Origin: Candidatus Cloacimonadota bacterium
GTDB taxonomy: Bacteria; Cloacimonadota; Cloacimonadia; Cloacimonadales; WRIO01
NCBI GenBank assembly: GCA_029553545.1
Contig: JAKPKU010000053.1
Span: 1 to 40,463, forward strand
Length of the DNA: 40,463 nucleotides
Direction: 5' to 3'
Part shown: one piece after another, positions 11,072 to 16,957 of the stretch
How the letters are laid out: every line of letters begins with the position of its first letter
Position numbering within the stretch: the stretch's first letter is position 1
Program-made: the position numbers and the translations under genes
Notes under the pieces: generated by a model
Told to the model about the DNA's origin: nothing
Databases searched by the model: none
What the model saw: the letters and a program-made list of their open reading frames with translations, nothing else

Positions 11072-11099
11072 TTGACAGAAATACTCAATTATGCATAAT
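11072..11099 (+). promoter_or_regulatory. Promoter of the subunit/chaperone-like/surface-protein cluster
   Basis: TTGACA (11072-11077) and CATAAT (11094-11099) are 16 bp apart, followed by a ~20-nt leader and GGAGGAG (11118-11124) ahead of the ATG at 11128. Confidence 0.7.
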
Positions 11100-11127
11100 C
11101 AAAACAGAATAAAATTTGGAGGAGAAA

Positions 11128-11685
11128 ATGAAGAAAACCTTTTTATTAATCGTAGTGCTCGTAGCTTTTACAAGCTTGTTGTTGGCTGATAGTGACAACT
11201 CAGGATTCGCAATTCCTACAATGGACAGACTTGTTGCAAATCAGAACCTTAATGTTTCTGCTGCAAACTGGGCTCCAACAGCTAATGTCGGAGAATGGAC
11301 TAATAGTGGTGCTGTCACATCGTCTTTTGAATATGGCACAACAAGAACAGAAACAAACTCAGCGAAAATTAGCGCAAAAATCAATACTGTTACTGGTATT
11401 GAAGCGAAACTTTGGGTAGAAGATTTTGCTTCGGCAGTGGCAAGCAACTTAGCTACAAATAACAGCCAAGGTGAAATATCTTTAAATGAAGAAACATATT
11501 ATGATTATACAACTGAAGATGATGCATTAGTTCTTGGCTTAGAAGATCAAGTTCTCATTGAAGATATTTATGGTGGCACATGGAAATTAACAGATCTCTT
11601 AAATTACAGATTTGTCTTTAATACACGTTTACCAGAGCAAACAAATATCATAGTAACTTATACAATTAGCGAAACAGTTGAATAA
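11128..11685 (+). CDS. Small secreted protein, subunit-like first gene of an export cluster
   Basis: The start is ATG 11128, 4 bp after GGAGGAG; an upstream in-frame TTG overlaps the ribosome site and is not used. The 185 residues begin with a standard signal peptide (MKKTFLLIVVLVAFTSLLLA, cut before DSDNSG). The rest is acidic, rich in Thr/Ser/Asn and alternating hydrophobic residues, has no Cys, and ends in a strand-like IIVTYTISETVE. Size, predicted all-beta character, strong ribosome site and position ahead of a chaperone-like gene suggest a secreted structural subunit, as in spore coat U/archaic pilins. I recognise no family directly, so this is inference from context. The next ATG lies 4 bp after its stop. 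Confidence 0.6.
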   Translation: MKKTFLLIVVLVAFTSLLLADSDNSGFAIPTMDRLVANQNLNVSAANWAPTANVGEWTNSGAVTSSFEYGTTRTETNSAKISAKINTVTGIEAKLWVEDFASAVASNLATNNSQGEISLNEETYYDYTTEDDALVLGLEDQVLIEDIYGGTWKLTDLLNYRFVFNTRLPEQTNIIVTYTISETVE

Positions 11686-11689
11686 AAAG

Positions 11690-12412
11690 ATGAATTTATC
11701 AATCATTGTAAGCAAGAGGTTGATCTTCTTGCTTACGATTTTTCCTTTATCTTCTTTACTTTTAGGTATATCTATGGGTAGTGGTCTATTAAATGAGTTT
11801 GAATTGACAGACAAGGCAATAGAGCAAAATCTGCTGATAACTAATGAAGCAGATAAAGCCTGCTTTGTAAGAGTATACTCAGAAGATGACATTAGCAGTG
11901 GCTGGTATCCTACATTACCAGATACTGTCATGATCAGCCCAAAGACAAATTATATTTATACTTTAAACACTAAAATCCCAGAAGAGCTTATAGATCAGTC
12001 GTATCACACCAAAATCTATGTTGAAGAAATTGGTGCAGTTCAAGCACAAAAGACGAGCTTTGGTAGTATAGGCACGTCTGTAAGATATGAGATTAATAAT
12101 ATCTATCACCACAATTATTCTCCCACACTAAATATCGAATTAAATAATTTTAAGATAAGTGATAATGCTATCAGCTTTGACTTGACTAATCAAGATGATT
12201 ATTTTCTCAAAGCAGAAATTAGTGTTCAAATTATCAATAATAGCGGAGAGATCAGTAAAGAAATAAAAGACAAATACAAAATATTAAACAAAAAGACACG
12301 CAAATGCAATCTCAAATTGGGCAATGATCTTGCTACAAACAGTATCAAACAAGTCTTAATCGTCATTACCAATCAAGAAGATGAGATTTGTGTCTTTGAA
12401 AAAAAGATTTAA
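11690..12412 (+). CDS. Exported Ig-like protein resembling a PapD-type periplasmic chaperone
   Basis: The 240-residue product starts at ATG 11690, 4 bp after the preceding stop with no clear Shine-Dalgarno, so coupling is likely; a TTG at 11678 overlapping that stop is the alternative. After a hydrophobic N-terminus (about 10-30) comes a pattern typical of PapD-like N-terminal domains: LLITNEADKACFVRVYSEDD, a Trp-Tyr-Pro segment, ISPKTNYIYTLNTKIPEEL, then YHTKIYVEEI. A second beta-rich half (about 135-240) would be the other Ig domain. I see no diagnostic PapD signature that proves the family; WxL/DUF916-type Ig proteins are an alternative. Its place between a subunit-like and a barrel gene supports a chaperone role. 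Confidence 0.5.
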   Translation: MNLSIIVSKRLIFLLTIFPLSSLLLGISMGSGLLNEFELTDKAIEQNLLITNEADKACFVRVYSEDDISSGWYPTLPDTVMISPKTNYIYTLNTKIPEELIDQSYHTKIYVEEIGAVQAQKTSFGSIGTSVRYEINNIYHHNYSPTLNIELNNFKISDNAISFDLTNQDDYFLKAEISVQIINNSGEISKEIKDKYKILNKKTRKCNLKLGNDLATNSIKQVLIVITNQEDEICVFEKKI

Positions 12413-12424
12413 TAGGAGGATAAA

Positions 12425-13459
12425 ATGAAGAAATCCCTAATTTTTGCTTGCTTATTTATGTTAAGCTTATCCGTGCTCTTAGCACAAGTAACTTATAATG
12501 AAGTGGAGAAAAATGATACTGTGGCACAAGTAGAAGCAGGTTCACAGCCTAAAATCATGACAAAGAATGCAATATTGATAGGATCTGTGCAAAAAGATAA
12601 TGACCAATATGACTATTGGAAATTAGATGAATCTCTTGAAGGGAATATTAAGATTAGTATCGTATCCGATGCAAATGTTGCTACGTATGGTTTACTTAAT
12701 CAATCAGATAAAACATGGGTTTTTAGGGATATTAAAGAACCACAAAGTACCGATCTAATACCAACTAAGGTTTATTATCTAGTGGCCAGAAACACCACAA
12801 ACACCAAGGTAGCTTACACCGTGACTCTCTATGACGAAGCTACTCTCCCAGTTGAGCTCTCATCTTTCGATGCTGTTTTACTCAATACCAATAATGTGCA
12901 ATTAAATTGGACGACCCAAACAGAAGCGAATATGGTTGGCTATAATATCTATCGTTCAAATGACGATGTGCAGACCAATGCTATTAGAGTAAACAATGAG
13001 ACAATCGGTGCGACCAATACTTCAAGCGAGCATAACTACTCTTTTATCGACTACGGTATTGAAGAAGGCGAATACTACTACTGGTTACAGTCAGTTGAAT
13101 CCAACAATGAGATAGAGATGCACGGACCAGTACAAGTGATCTACAATATCAATACAGATGTACCAAACCCAAACTATCAATACAATCATGTATTAAAAGG
13201 TGCATATCCAAACCCATTCAATCCCAGCACTTCAATTCAATATGAATTAGCTTGTGCAGCAAATGTTCAGATCTCTATTTACAATACTAAGGGTCAAAGA
13301 GTTAAGACTTATAACACGAGCCACAATGCTGAAGGCACATACAGCGTGACTTGGAATGGTGAAGATGAAAATGGCAAATCTGTGAACAGTGGTGTTTATT
13401 TCTACACTATGACAGCAGGCAAGACAATTCAAAGTAAGAAAATGATCTTAGTAAAGTAA
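12425..13459 (+). CDS. Secreted protein with PPC-like, fibronectin-like and C-terminal FlgD-like sorting-type domains
   Basis: AGGAGG lies just upstream of the ATG. The signal peptide (MKKSLIFACLFMLSLSVLLAQ) is followed by a pre-peptidase C-terminal-like domain (about 22-135; VEKNDTVAQVE at its start), then a fibronectin III-like segment (about 138-235: PVELSSFDAVLLNTNNVQLN, WTTQTEANMVGYNIYRS). The last 85 residues are a FlgD-like Ig domain starting YPNPFNPS (261-268) and ending GVYFYTM...KKMILVK. Such tails are common on secreted proteins of Bacteroidota and relatives and often serve as type IX secretion signals. No type IX component is in this window. The protein is probably exposed on the cell surface; a tip or adhesin role in the cluster is conjecture. 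Confidence 0.8.
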   Translation: MKKSLIFACLFMLSLSVLLAQVTYNEVEKNDTVAQVEAGSQPKIMTKNAILIGSVQKDNDQYDYWKLDESLEGNIKISIVSDANVATYGLLNQSDKTWVFRDIKEPQSTDLIPTKVYYLVARNTTNTKVAYTVTLYDEATLPVELSSFDAVLLNTNNVQLNWTTQTEANMVGYNIYRSNDDVQTNAIRVNNETIGATNTSSEHNYSFIDYGIEEGEYYYWLQSVESNNEIEMHGPVQVIYNINTDVPNPNYQYNHVLKGAYPNPFNPSTSIQYELACAANVQISIYNTKGQRVKTYNTSHNAEGTYSVTWNGEDENGKSVNSGVYFYTMTAGKTIQSKKMILVK

Positions 13460-13479
13460 GACATTGATATTAATATTTA

Positions 13480-13507
13480 AAGCGGACAGCAATTGTCCGC
13501 TTTTTTT
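13480..13507 (+). terminator. Intrinsic terminator inside the cluster, before the beta-barrel gene
   Basis: AAGCGGACA (13480-13488) and TGTCCGCTT (13494-13502) form a 9-bp stem with loop GCAAT, and the T-run reaches 13507. Ten bases later the next ORF starts, so partial read-through would set a lower level for the barrel protein. Confidence 0.92.
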
Positions 13508-13516
13508 GTATCAAGC

Positions 13517-16135
13517 ATGAAGCAAGTAATAAGTTCCCTCTTTTTTCTGCTATTTTGTTCATTGTATAGCCTACAATTGAGCTTTATCTCAGTGCCTACG
13601 TCGCTTGAACCCAATAAGAGCTACACTATCTCCATCGGTATAGAAAATGATAGTGACTCTCTTCTTGTGCTTCATGGGGAATTGCAGACGCCTGGTCGTT
13701 GGCAAGCATTTCTCACCAAGCATAATATTAGCTTAGAAGCGCATGAAAAGACCTTTCAAGTGAGCACAATCAGGGTGCCTTTAGCAGCTGCAGCAGGGAC
13801 TTTTCCCCTTACTTATCTCATCTCAAATGTTCAAGGGATAGCACTTGATTCTATTAGTATCAAGTGCAAGGTACCAGAGCTTAGAGAAGTGGAAATAATA
13901 GGGTCGCCTCTTCCCATATACTCGCTCAGTGGCGATAGCCTAAACTTTGAAATCTCTGTAAAAAACAAGAGTAATATGCCTATTCAACTGAAGAATCTTG
14001 ACCCACACAATAGAAGTTTAGAAAAGGTCACTCTTTTTCAAGAAGAATTGGCGATCAATGAAGCGAGAGTGCTTCATTTCTCAGCTCAAATAAGCAAAGA
14101 CATAGAGAAGTCACAATCCATGCTACTTGAGTTGCCAATAGAAATCAGGTATGCCAATGGAGGCAGAGAACAGAGGGCAATAAGCTATCAGACGCAAGTG
14201 ATACCTGTAGATAGTCGAGAAGGTGATATTTATAATAACCTTAATCTTGTCTTCAATGGGCAAAGCCGCTATGCAGAGAATGACTTAAACAGTTATTATT
14301 CGATTACAGGCAATAGTTATCTCGATGCGAAGAGGCGGCAATATCTCAGCTTTAATTATAGCGGTAATGACCAGCAAGGTGGTTTTTTATCACGTGAAAA
14401 TAGAAGCTCAGCCACATGGCAAACACCATATAGCACGCTTACTTATGGCGATACAAACTTGGGCTTTGTCTCTTCAAAGATAAACTCTCAATCTGGGCGT
14501 GGTGCAAGTCTTGCGCTCAATAGTCGTTATCTCAACTTGTATGCAGGCAATCTGCAGGATTTGGATAGTTTTACTGATCATTATGCCTTTGCTGCCTCAG
14601 TCAAGCCGTGGAGATATTCAATGCACAAGGTTTCTCATGCCTTTTCTGATCAAGCAGATAATGTCTTCACTGCAGTAGAAAATCAGATAAGAATCAATAA
14701 TATACTAAACTTTGATGCAGAGATTGCCAGTAATCATGATAAAGGCAAGCAGGACAATAGTTATGCCTATGATCTCAGCTGGCAACCAAGCCTGAATAAT
14801 GTGAACTTTAAGTCTCGTTATTTTTACAAGCCTTCTGCATACACGGGTACTGAAGAGAAGAGTACACAATTCAACAATGCTCTGCGTTTTAATGCACTCT
14901 CTCGCTATATAAGCCTCTATTTTGACAAAGATTCATACGATATTAAAAATAAATACCAAAAGGAAGAATTGCGCTTTGCGGGTGAAACCAGTATCACAGG
15001 TAATTTTAATACACAATTAGAATATAAAATACAAGATACAGACTTTGCAGAGATCAAGGTGAATGAGAAAGTCATCAATAGTATTTGGTATTATGATAGA
15101 GACTTTGAGCAGCTCCAGACGAGGCACTCTGCTACTTTCAGTATCAATCAATTAGATGAGGGGAGTAAACGCCTTTCACAGACATATCGTTCATCTTTTC
15201 TCTTTCCCTATGATGCCAATAATACCCTGCGAGCATCTTTCACCTTAAATAGTAAAAATGAGAACTTTAGCTATCAAAATTTGAAGACACTCAGTTCGAG
15301 CTTTAACCTGCATAGCATTTTATCGAATAGGCTGAGCAATTCTTTTTCTTATAGTAATAATCTATTTTTGCACAAACACAGTCAAATGAGCAATAGCTTT
15401 TCCAATAATCTCAACTATAAGTATGCAGATAACTATGTCTTTTCTCTAAATACAGGGCTCTCATTTCGACAAAAACATAACTATTGGTTCGCTTCTCTTG
15501 GGTTAAATTATCGATTAGGCATTCCACTACAAGAGCGAAGAGATATTAGCTATCTAAAAGGACGGATAGTTGATCAGAATAATATTGCTATCGAAAAGAA
15601 GATAATGAAGCTCAACCAAGATCTGGCAATAAGCAATAAAGACGGCGAGTTTATTTTCGCTGCTTTACGTGACGGCTCATATAAATTGGACGTGATAGAC
15701 AGTGATAGTCATGTCATGACGCCTGCCCTGCCATTACAAGTGCAGATCAAAGCCGATTCATTGCAGTATCTCACTCTTACTCAAGCCTCTGCCTCTGCTA
15801 TCTTAGGGCAAGTTAAGCTCTTTAAGCCTGTAGCAAATTGGTTTATGCAAGACGAACCAGAGTTTTACGAAGCGGGACCATTTTCTGCACTATTAATCAC
15901 GCTATCAAATGGTGTGACAAGTTATAGCACAGCCAGTGATATTAGGGGTAACTTTTCTTTTAAAAGGCTGCAGCCTGGTCAGTGGACATTAAAGATAGAT
16001 AAGAATAGCTTACCAAAGAATTATGAAACAGAATGGGAAGAACTCAATATCGTGCTGAGTGCTGCGCAAGATATAGAGATAATAATTAAGGTATCAGAAA
16101 AGCTAAAAAGAGTAATAATCAGGCAAATAGATTAG
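13517..16135 (+). CDS. Large outer-membrane beta-barrel protein with Ig-like domains at both ends, usher-like
   Basis: The start is ATG 13517; an in-frame TTG at 13493 lies in the terminator. No Shine-Dalgarno is visible. The 872-residue protein has a signal peptide (MKQVISSLFFLLFCSLYSL), two Ig-like domains (about 20-115 and 120-225), and about 450 residues of alternating aromatic/polar strands rich in Tyr, Asn and Ser (about 235-680), as in outer-membrane barrels. Two carboxypeptidase-regulatory-like domains follow (about 682-755, GRIVDQNNIAIEKK and NKDGEFIFAALRDGSYKL; about 765-865, DIRGNFSFKRLQPGQWTL). The total length and the order barrel then C-terminal Ig domains recall fimbrial ushers, but no PapC signature is recognisable. 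With the upstream subunit-like and chaperone-like genes it could be the export pore. Confidence 0.6.
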   Translation: MKQVISSLFFLLFCSLYSLQLSFISVPTSLEPNKSYTISIGIENDSDSLLVLHGELQTPGRWQAFLTKHNISLEAHEKTFQVSTIRVPLAAAAGTFPLTYLISNVQGIALDSISIKCKVPELREVEIIGSPLPIYSLSGDSLNFEISVKNKSNMPIQLKNLDPHNRSLEKVTLFQEELAINEARVLHFSAQISKDIEKSQSMLLELPIEIRYANGGREQRAISYQTQVIPVDSREGDIYNNLNLVFNGQSRYAENDLNSYYSITGNSYLDAKRRQYLSFNYSGNDQQGGFLSRENRSSATWQTPYSTLTYGDTNLGFVSSKINSQSGRGASLALNSRYLNLYAGNLQDLDSFTDHYAFAASVKPWRYSMHKVSHAFSDQADNVFTAVENQIRINNILNFDAEIASNHDKGKQDNSYAYDLSWQPSLNNVNFKSRYFYKPSAYTGTEEKSTQFNNALRFNALSRYISLYFDKDSYDIKNKYQKEELRFAGETSITGNFNTQLEYKIQDTDFAEIKVNEKVINSIWYYDRDFEQLQTRHSATFSINQLDEGSKRLSQTYRSSFLFPYDANNTLRASFTLNSKNENFSYQNLKTLSSSFNLHSILSNRLSNSFSYSNNLFLHKHSQMSNSFSNNLNYKYADNYVFSLNTGLSFRQKHNYWFASLGLNYRLGIPLQERRDISYLKGRIVDQNNIAIEKKIMKLNQDLAISNKDGEFIFAALRDGSYKLDVIDSDSHVMTPALPLQVQIKADSLQYLTLTQASASAILGQVKLFKPVANWFMQDEPEFYEAGPFSALLITLSNGVTSYSTASDIRGNFSFKRLQPGQWTLKIDKNSLPKNYETEWEELNIVLSAAQDIEIIIKVSEKLKRVIIRQID

Positions 16136-16204: not shown

Positions 16205-16957
16205 ATGCTAAGACACTTTGATAAATACATAGAAAAAGCAAAAATACTGGTAGTAGACCACAATGATGATAATGCCTACTCTATCTCAAATATTCTAATT
16301 GCTAACTCATTCCAAGTCATACCATGCAAATATGGTAAAGAAGCACTGGGACTTGCAATTGAGAGCGTGCCCGACCTAGTGTTAATGAGAATCGACTTAC
16401 CTGATATAAATAGCTTTGAAATCTTTAAAAACTTCAAAAGAAACGGTAAGTTAGCCACAATACCTATTATCTTTATCACCTCCAGCAGAGAGGTAGACGA
16501 TTTAATAAAAAGCCTCAATATGGGGGCAACTGACTATATATCACTTCCAATCAATCAGGGTGAGCTAATCGCTCGTATCAAAACACACCTAATTAATAAA
16601 TTTGCCATAGAGCTCATAATACAGCAAAACAAAGAGCTCTCAGAATCTACGCAAGACCTGGCAAATGCACTGATGAACCTAAAAATACACCAAGAAAAAG
16701 AGATTGAAATGGAAAAGCTGAAAAGTGTCTTGGCAATGGCGGTGACGACGAATCACGAGCTTAAACAACCCCTGGCTGTTATTCAAGGCAACATTGAGTT
16801 ATTAATACTCAAACATCCAGAGTTGAAAGATAATAAAAACATAAATAGAATATTCGAGAGTTTACAAGATATTACCACTAAAATAGCAGTGAATACAAAT
16901 ATCGACCAGGTACTCTACAAAGAGTATGCTAATGGAGAAGAGATGGTCGATACCTAA
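16205..16957 (+). CDS. Degenerate receiver domain fused to an isolated HisKA domain
   Basis: GGAGGG precedes the ATG. The N-terminal 130 residues have the fold pattern of a response regulator receiver (KILVVDHNDDN, DLVLMRIDLPDI, FITSS, YISLPINQGELIARI). The phosphorylation chemistry is lost: the second acidic residue of the pair is His19, the acceptor Asp is Arg62, and the Lys is Leu114; Thr92 is kept. A coiled linker (about 140-175) leads to a HisKA helix pair with the H-box TTNHELKQPLAVIQG (His184). The protein ends at residue 250 with no HATPase domain. It might be a dimerising scaffold or be phosphorylated in trans by another kinase. It stands alone, convergent with purL. Confidence 0.8.
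   Translation: MLRHFDKYIEKAKILVVDHNDDNAYSISNILIANSFQVIPCKYGKEALGLAIESVPDLVLMRIDLPDINSFEIFKNFKRNGKLATIPIIFITSSREVDDLIKSLNMGATDYISLPINQGELIARIKTHLINKFAIELIIQQNKELSESTQDLANALMNLKIHQEKEIEMEKLKSVLAMAVTTNHELKQPLAVIQGNIELLILKHPELKDNKNINRIFESLQDITTKIAVNTNIDQVLYKEYANGEEMVDT

Follow-up and report, generated by a model that had tools for sequence, protein, structure and literature searches.

A divergent three-gene module of Cloacimonadota that probably assembles a surface fibre by a chaperone-usher-like route

Can a chaperone-usher locus be recognised when the signatures that usually identify such loci are missing? This question is raised by a stretch of 40,463 nucleotides from a Candidatus Cloacimonadota bacterium (contig JAKPKU010000053.1 of assembly GCA_029553545.1), which we call the window and always mean at its full length. 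It carries four adjacent open reading frames (ORFs), whose coordinates and signal-peptide-like starts proved to be as described in an earlier note made from the sequence alone (Table 1). That note proposed that the four act together in the manner of chaperone-usher systems: a small all-beta secreted protein as the subunit, a PapD-like chaperone, a secreted protein with a FlgD-like tail (below, gene 3) and an 872-amino-acid protein with a barrel-like region (below, the barrel protein). Our answer is that subunit, chaperone and barrel protein quite likely constitute a divergent chaperone-usher-like system, which would assemble a surface fibre along a modified chaperone-usher pathway, while gene 3 stands apart. 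What carries this reading is a three-gene order conserved in relatives, the homology of the chaperone, the C-terminal domains that the barrel protein has in common with a group of ushers, and two hairpins in the DNA. Comparison of the three core proteins with Pfam and NCBIfam gave no match to a pilus family.

With the 872-amino-acid protein as the only query, 59 related genomes yielded one relative, in genome G023 (1.5e-20). A profile of these two sequences extended the set to G117, G092, G001 and G093 and to another copy on contig C192 of the window's genome, and a profile of the chaperone added G002 and G003. Reading the DNA around these matches revealed a common order: one to three small secreted proteins, a protein of 256-292 amino acids with two immunoglobulin (Ig) domains, and a protein of 908-969 amino acids. 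This order is complete at seven loci, namely the window (with gene 3 inserted), C192, G001, G002, G023, G117 and G092 (where a further subunit-like gene intervenes). Two partial loci lie on short contigs: that of G093 starts at the chaperone gene and has a masked stretch, the barrel gene being present, and that of G003 comprises a subunit and a chaperone gene without a barrel gene. The genes are mostly 2-60 base pairs (bp) apart or overlapping, with gaps of 100-167 bp in G092. Such an order is kept across families of the phylum despite sequence identities of 15-25%. As a test of chance and circularity, profiles built without the window proteins were run against 190 ORFs, and they recovered the window chaperone at 2.7e-15 (8.8e-14 after removal of the signal peptide) and the window barrel protein at 1.3e-41. 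The earlier note had named conserved order in relatives as one check on its proposal; the subunit, chaperone and barrel genes are indeed neighbours there. The scanned genome-contig and viral-contig collections yielded no relative.

The window chaperone itself has no Pfam match, and its relation to PapD emerges in two steps. The chaperone profile of the three-gene family also picks the chaperones of another kind of locus, in which the genes of DUF4402 proteins, of a 'molecular chaperone' and of a 'carboxypeptidase regulatory-like' protein follow one another; such loci are found in G009 (L067) and on plasmids of Polaromonas, Novosphingobium, Sphingopyxis and Pseudoalteromonas. The family chaperones align with those of the DUF4402 loci from end to end (hhalign 98.9%, 1.7e-17, 258 columns). 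The DUF4402-type chaperones, in turn, align profile to profile with five Escherichia coli chaperones (94.9%, 4.5e-8), and those of three DUF4402-type loci pass the Pfam cut-off for PapD_N. By this two-step chain, the window chaperone belongs, as judged from its sequence, to the PapD superfamily. A direct match between FimC and the window chaperone was not obtained, and direct hhalign comparison of the chaperone and barrel families with E. coli chaperones, ushers, EcpB and EcpC was likewise negative. A single-sequence model of the window chaperone has two beta-sandwich domains (predicted local distance difference test score, pLDDT, 61; predicted template-modelling score, pTM, 0.44), and a fold search with it listed the YadV chaperone and WxLIP among its matches, with low template-modelling scores. 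The earlier note saw here a PapD-like two-Ig protein translationally coupled to the subunit; the two sandwich domains and the superfamily homology speak for the first part of that description, and as to the second, the two genes lie 4 bp apart. Of the published chaperone hallmarks (a D1 proline, the Arg89 by which archaic and alternative chaperones anchor the subunit C-terminus, and a donor-strand motif; PMC4654587), judged on an alignment with EcpB, the super-conserved proline occurs in the window chaperone and in five of the nine family members and is missing from the other four, and most members have Tyr or Phe at the start of the archaic donor-strand position.

The DUF4402 loci inform the third protein as well. 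Their ushers align with those of E. coli from the plug to the late barrel (95%, 4e-8, 409 columns) and are therefore true ushers, though the Pfam Usher model misses them. The barrel protein of our family matches these ushers over 229 C-terminal columns (97.6%, 2.7e-12), covering the last strands and the twin C-terminal domains, and its C-terminal region still does so when taken alone (97.1%, 5.2e-11). By Pfam, the C-termini of the relatives consist of two transthyretin-like domains, that of G002, the most divergent one, being without a Pfam match. The usher profile had many other matches in the 59 genomes; these were rejected as generic CarboxypepD_reg because, outside the family, the matches extend over no more than the C-terminal part of the profile. 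Residues 240-690 of the barrel protein contain 22-25 amphipathic strand-like segments, against 14-20 in shuffled sequences and 25-27 in the barrel and plug of FimD, a crude count with propensities of our own choosing. We infer from the sequence that the pore would be an outer-membrane barrel. A search of PDB sequences with the 872-amino-acid protein gave nothing significant. The N-terminal module is weakly similar to the chaperone of its own family (92% when full-length proteins are compared, 46% when isolated). Of the barrel flanked by Ig-like domains that had been described earlier, the barrel-like stretch survives by the strand count, while the C-terminal domains turned out to be transthyretin/CarboxypepD_reg-like and not Ig-like. 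A plug-domain profile found no plug in the barrel protein, but it also missed that of FimD, the positive control, and this test was discarded.

The assignment of the subunit is the weakest of the three, because the score of the window subunit in the leave-one-out profile, 8.3e-7, falls to 0.0024 without signal peptides; even then, it is the best match after the members and the second subunit-like protein of G092. In several relatives, the subunit N-termini have alternating hydrophobic residues (TLDLDLSIP, TIDFDFSIP) that are degenerate in the window, and all the subunits appear from sequence to finish with a beta strand, as is the case for subunits without a strand G. A strong Shine-Dalgarno site ahead of the first ATG of the subunit gene bears out what had been noted of its ribosome site. 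The second subunit-like protein of G092, 350 amino acids long and encoded between the chaperone and barrel genes, matches the subunit profile at 1.3e-7 (7e-4 without signal peptides). A 350-amino-acid protein in this position (L016 8447-9499 and L018 1267-2623) looks two-domained and might be a tip protein.

Taken together, the gene order kept in relatives, the tie of the chaperone to PapD-type chaperones through those of the DUF4402 loci, and the twin domains common with DUF4402-type ushers support, for the three core genes, the idea of a locus of this kind without its usual signatures. Several results weigh against it. The Usher family (PF00577) has no match in the 872-amino-acid protein nor in 125 genomes of the phylum, with a positive E. 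coli control. The barrel region alone matched no other barrel. The N-terminal region proved unrelated by profile to the N-termini of both E. coli and DUF4402-type ushers, a test that is itself weak, since the control pair of DUF4402-type against E. coli ushers was negative too. The C-terminal likeness is partly generic, a TonB-type receptor with CarboxypepD_reg scoring 63%. The single-sequence fold of the barrel protein (mean pLDDT 29.5) is too poor to use. In the chaperone, the Arg89 position is occupied by Trp in most members and by His in the window, Arg being absent. Finally, the window subunit is tied only weakly to its family once signal peptides are removed, and homology of the subunits to DUF4402 pilins was tested and not found.

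How, then, should the module be classified? The DUF4402 loci resemble it in gene order, in full-length chaperone homology, in usher length and in the twin C-terminal domains; they differ in their ushers, which contain a plug-like segment and can be aligned with those of E. coli, whereas the N-terminal module and barrel of our family do not match, and its subunits are not detectably DUF4402. With the archaic and alternative pili (CsuC-CsuD, EcpB-EcpC), the module has in common a two-Ig chaperone, the D1 proline (in the window), an aromatic residue at the start of the donor strand and the order subunit-chaperone-usher; however, Arg89 is missing, and there is no direct profile match to EcpB or EcpC. 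The classical pili (FimC-FimD) are similar in the logic and size of the three proteins, but the chaperone is linked to them only via DUF4402-type chaperones, no direct match to FimC or FimD exists, and PF00577 is absent from the phylum. Since an Usher family match, a known usher N-terminal domain and the arginine of non-classical chaperones were all looked for and not found, we do not assign the module to the classical, archaic or alternative families. It is probably chaperone-usher-like in its working, yet cannot be placed in a known usher family.

Some observations on the DUF4402 loci themselves may be added. Those on plasmids (L070, L071, L072, L085 and L087) encode ushers that align with E. 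coli ushers, yet their annotation says no more than carboxypeptidase regulatory-like or hypothetical protein. The locus of G009 (L067 615-7327) has five DUF4402/SCPU-like small proteins, a chaperone and an 888-amino-acid usher with a plug-like segment; it is unlike the rest of the phylum and possibly represents a mis-binned contig.

If the module works as we suppose, the subunit (11128) would be exported, and the two-Ig chaperone (11690) would then retain it in the periplasm and complete its fold with a G1-type strand. The complex would dock on the barrel protein (13517) via its N-terminal Ig module, its twin C-terminal domains or both, and strand exchange between subunits would lead to the extrusion of a thin surface fibre. 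The barrel, strand donation, docking, extrusion and the expression ratios considered next are thus the conjectural side of our proposal. The earlier note pointed to a terminator before the barrel gene, which is real as a structure (z -5.1), and overlooked a stronger hairpin just within the 5' end of the chaperone gene (z -6.3), possibly an attenuator after the subunit gene. Both hairpins would fit an abundant subunit and a scarce barrel protein, if their sequences act as they look; the dose so set would be high for the subunit, lower for the chaperone and little for the barrel protein. Terminator-like patterns in the whole region are not in excess. A different terminator-like hairpin lies at the subunit-chaperone junction of G092; among the loci tested, only the window and G092 have one at this place, and we rejected a junction terminator as a family feature. 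The promoter candidate before the subunit gene has nothing but its match to the consensus in its favour; shuffled sequences contain about as many promoter-like sites as the region does.

Table 1. Features of the locus, given as positions in the window
Feature	Position	Strand	Basis or remark
Sigma-70-like promoter candidate (TTGACA, 16, CATAAT) before the subunit gene	11072..11099	+	11/12 consensus bases
Strong Shine-Dalgarno site GGAGGAG of the subunit gene	11118..11124	+	Read in the sequence
Putative fibre subunit, 185 amino acids, small all-beta; signal-peptide-like start	11128..11685	+	Leave-one-out profile; first position also in other loci
Putative two-Ig periplasmic chaperone, 240 amino acids, PapD/WxLIP relative; signal-peptide-like start	11690..12412	+	Profiles of relatives; predicted model
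15-pair hairpin with T run inside the start of the chaperone gene	11705..11739	+	z -6.3
Gene 3, exported, 344 amino acids, Fn3-like part and FlgD/type IX secretion type A tail, outside the module; signal-peptide-like start	12425..13459	+	Family matches; missing from other loci
Intrinsic terminator-like hairpin before the barrel gene	13479..13510 (stem 13479-13503 and T run)	+	z -5.1
Putative usher-like outer-membrane protein, 872 amino acids; signal-peptide-like start	13517..16135	+	Leave-one-out profile; relatives sit after the chaperone in other loci
N-terminal module, residues about 21-240, probably two Ig/NEW3-like domains	13577..14236	+	Weak likeness to the family's own chaperone
Barrel-like region, residues 241-690	14237..15586	+	Strand-segment count
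Two C-terminal transthyretin/CarboxypepD_reg-like domains	15587..16132	+	Pfam; common with DUF4402-type ushers

Among other interpretations, the one that fares best takes its cue from the WxL cell-wall complexes of Gram-positive bacteria, for which a published prediction (PMC10599100) has WxLIP complete the WxL fold by inserting a strand; seen by analogy, this is in effect donor-strand complementation. Here, the two-Ig protein would be the permanent partner of the small protein, completing and anchoring it, and the barrel protein would export or anchor the pair, with no polymer being formed. A joint chaperone profile indeed matches E. faecium WxLIP from end to end (2.1e-9), the next PDB sequence following at 0.26, although this match depends on the combined alignment, since the smaller family profile alone does not list WxLIP. 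The chaperone of G023 exceeds the WxLIP_PGBD (PF06030) cut-off, WxLIP is among the fold-search matches of the window chaperone mentioned above, and the subunits are few in most loci, with a single one in four. However, the module chaperones end without a C-terminal transmembrane helix, and neither a WxL motif nor a WxL family match was found in the subunits. Moreover, the constant large barrel-like protein with its usher-type C-terminal domains is foreign to WxL clusters, and some loci have two or three subunits and a two-domain subunit-like protein. Overall, we regard a WxL-like complex as unlikely, and keep to the fibre-assembling module as the better account. As an aside, among the control genomes WxLIP_PGBD also matches in Thermotoga maritima, outside the Gram-positive bacteria.

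Still less probable, in our opinion, is a generic cluster with no assembly function, in which an Ig-domain envelope protein would merely neighbour a porin or receptor of the outer membrane that has CarboxypepD-type domains. Two observations agree with such a view: what Pfam matches in the barrel protein is the generic CarboxypepD_reg, and the direct comparisons with FimD and FimC were negative. It is difficult to reconcile with an order kept across families at the low identities given above and with a chaperone that groups with PapD-type chaperones far above background.

The remaining question is that of gene 3. The FlgD-like sorting tail ascribed to it is genuine (FlgD_ig at 4.8e-13 and TIGR04183 at 1.7e-11, above cut-off), and it occurs on gene 3 only, the core three genes having no such tail. 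Sequences similar to its tail and Fn3-like part occur at 55 places in the genome, and a counterpart is missing from every other locus; on these two findings we rejected it as a member of the module, and the four genes do not hold together as one set. The window's own genome also contains SprA_N (2.1e-20, above cut-off). Gene 3 is best read as a type IX-style cargo that happens to sit in the subunit-chaperone unit. That it is instead the real substrate, and the four genes one secretion unit as first proposed, seems to us very improbable: gene 3, lying 12 bp downstream of the chaperone gene, is preceded by a strong ribosome site (AGGAGG), which speaks for it and suggests that gene 3 is probably co-transcribed, whereas the 55 genomic look-alikes, the lack of such a gene in other loci and an SprA-type type IX gene available to export its product all speak against it.

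The surroundings of the loci deserve a brief comment. Directly 3' of the barrel gene in G117 and G023, there is a very long TPR protein of 1650-1740 amino acids (L015 8917-14136; L003 10097-15043), and a Pseudoalteromonas DUF4402 locus likewise has a TPR protein downstream. Signalling genes adjoin several loci (window 16205-16957; L017 8571-11139; L019 11561-14135; L016 11472-13001): a response regulator, CheW- and CheA-like genes, and a response regulator with an apparent sigma-54-type activator fragment, the last three read from the sequence with no family scan.

Returning to the three-gene module as a divergent chaperone-usher-like system, it would extend assembly of this type to a phylum in which the standard usher model has no match, and surveys based on PF00577 therefore miss it. 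It is tempting to go further and to see in it a separate branch of strand-donating surface-assembly systems, with a chaperone-like Ig pair at the usher N-terminus, a plugless barrel and a chaperone standing between PapD and WxLIP. We hold this to be a doubtful, if attractive, possibility; if it were true, a single two-Ig strand donor would be the common ancestor of chaperone-usher pili and WxL complexes. The module family and the DUF4402 loci together form a sequence bridge between the PapD chaperones and WxLIP, and with such a bridge the question of how strand complementation arose in diderms and in monoderms can be put to a structural test.

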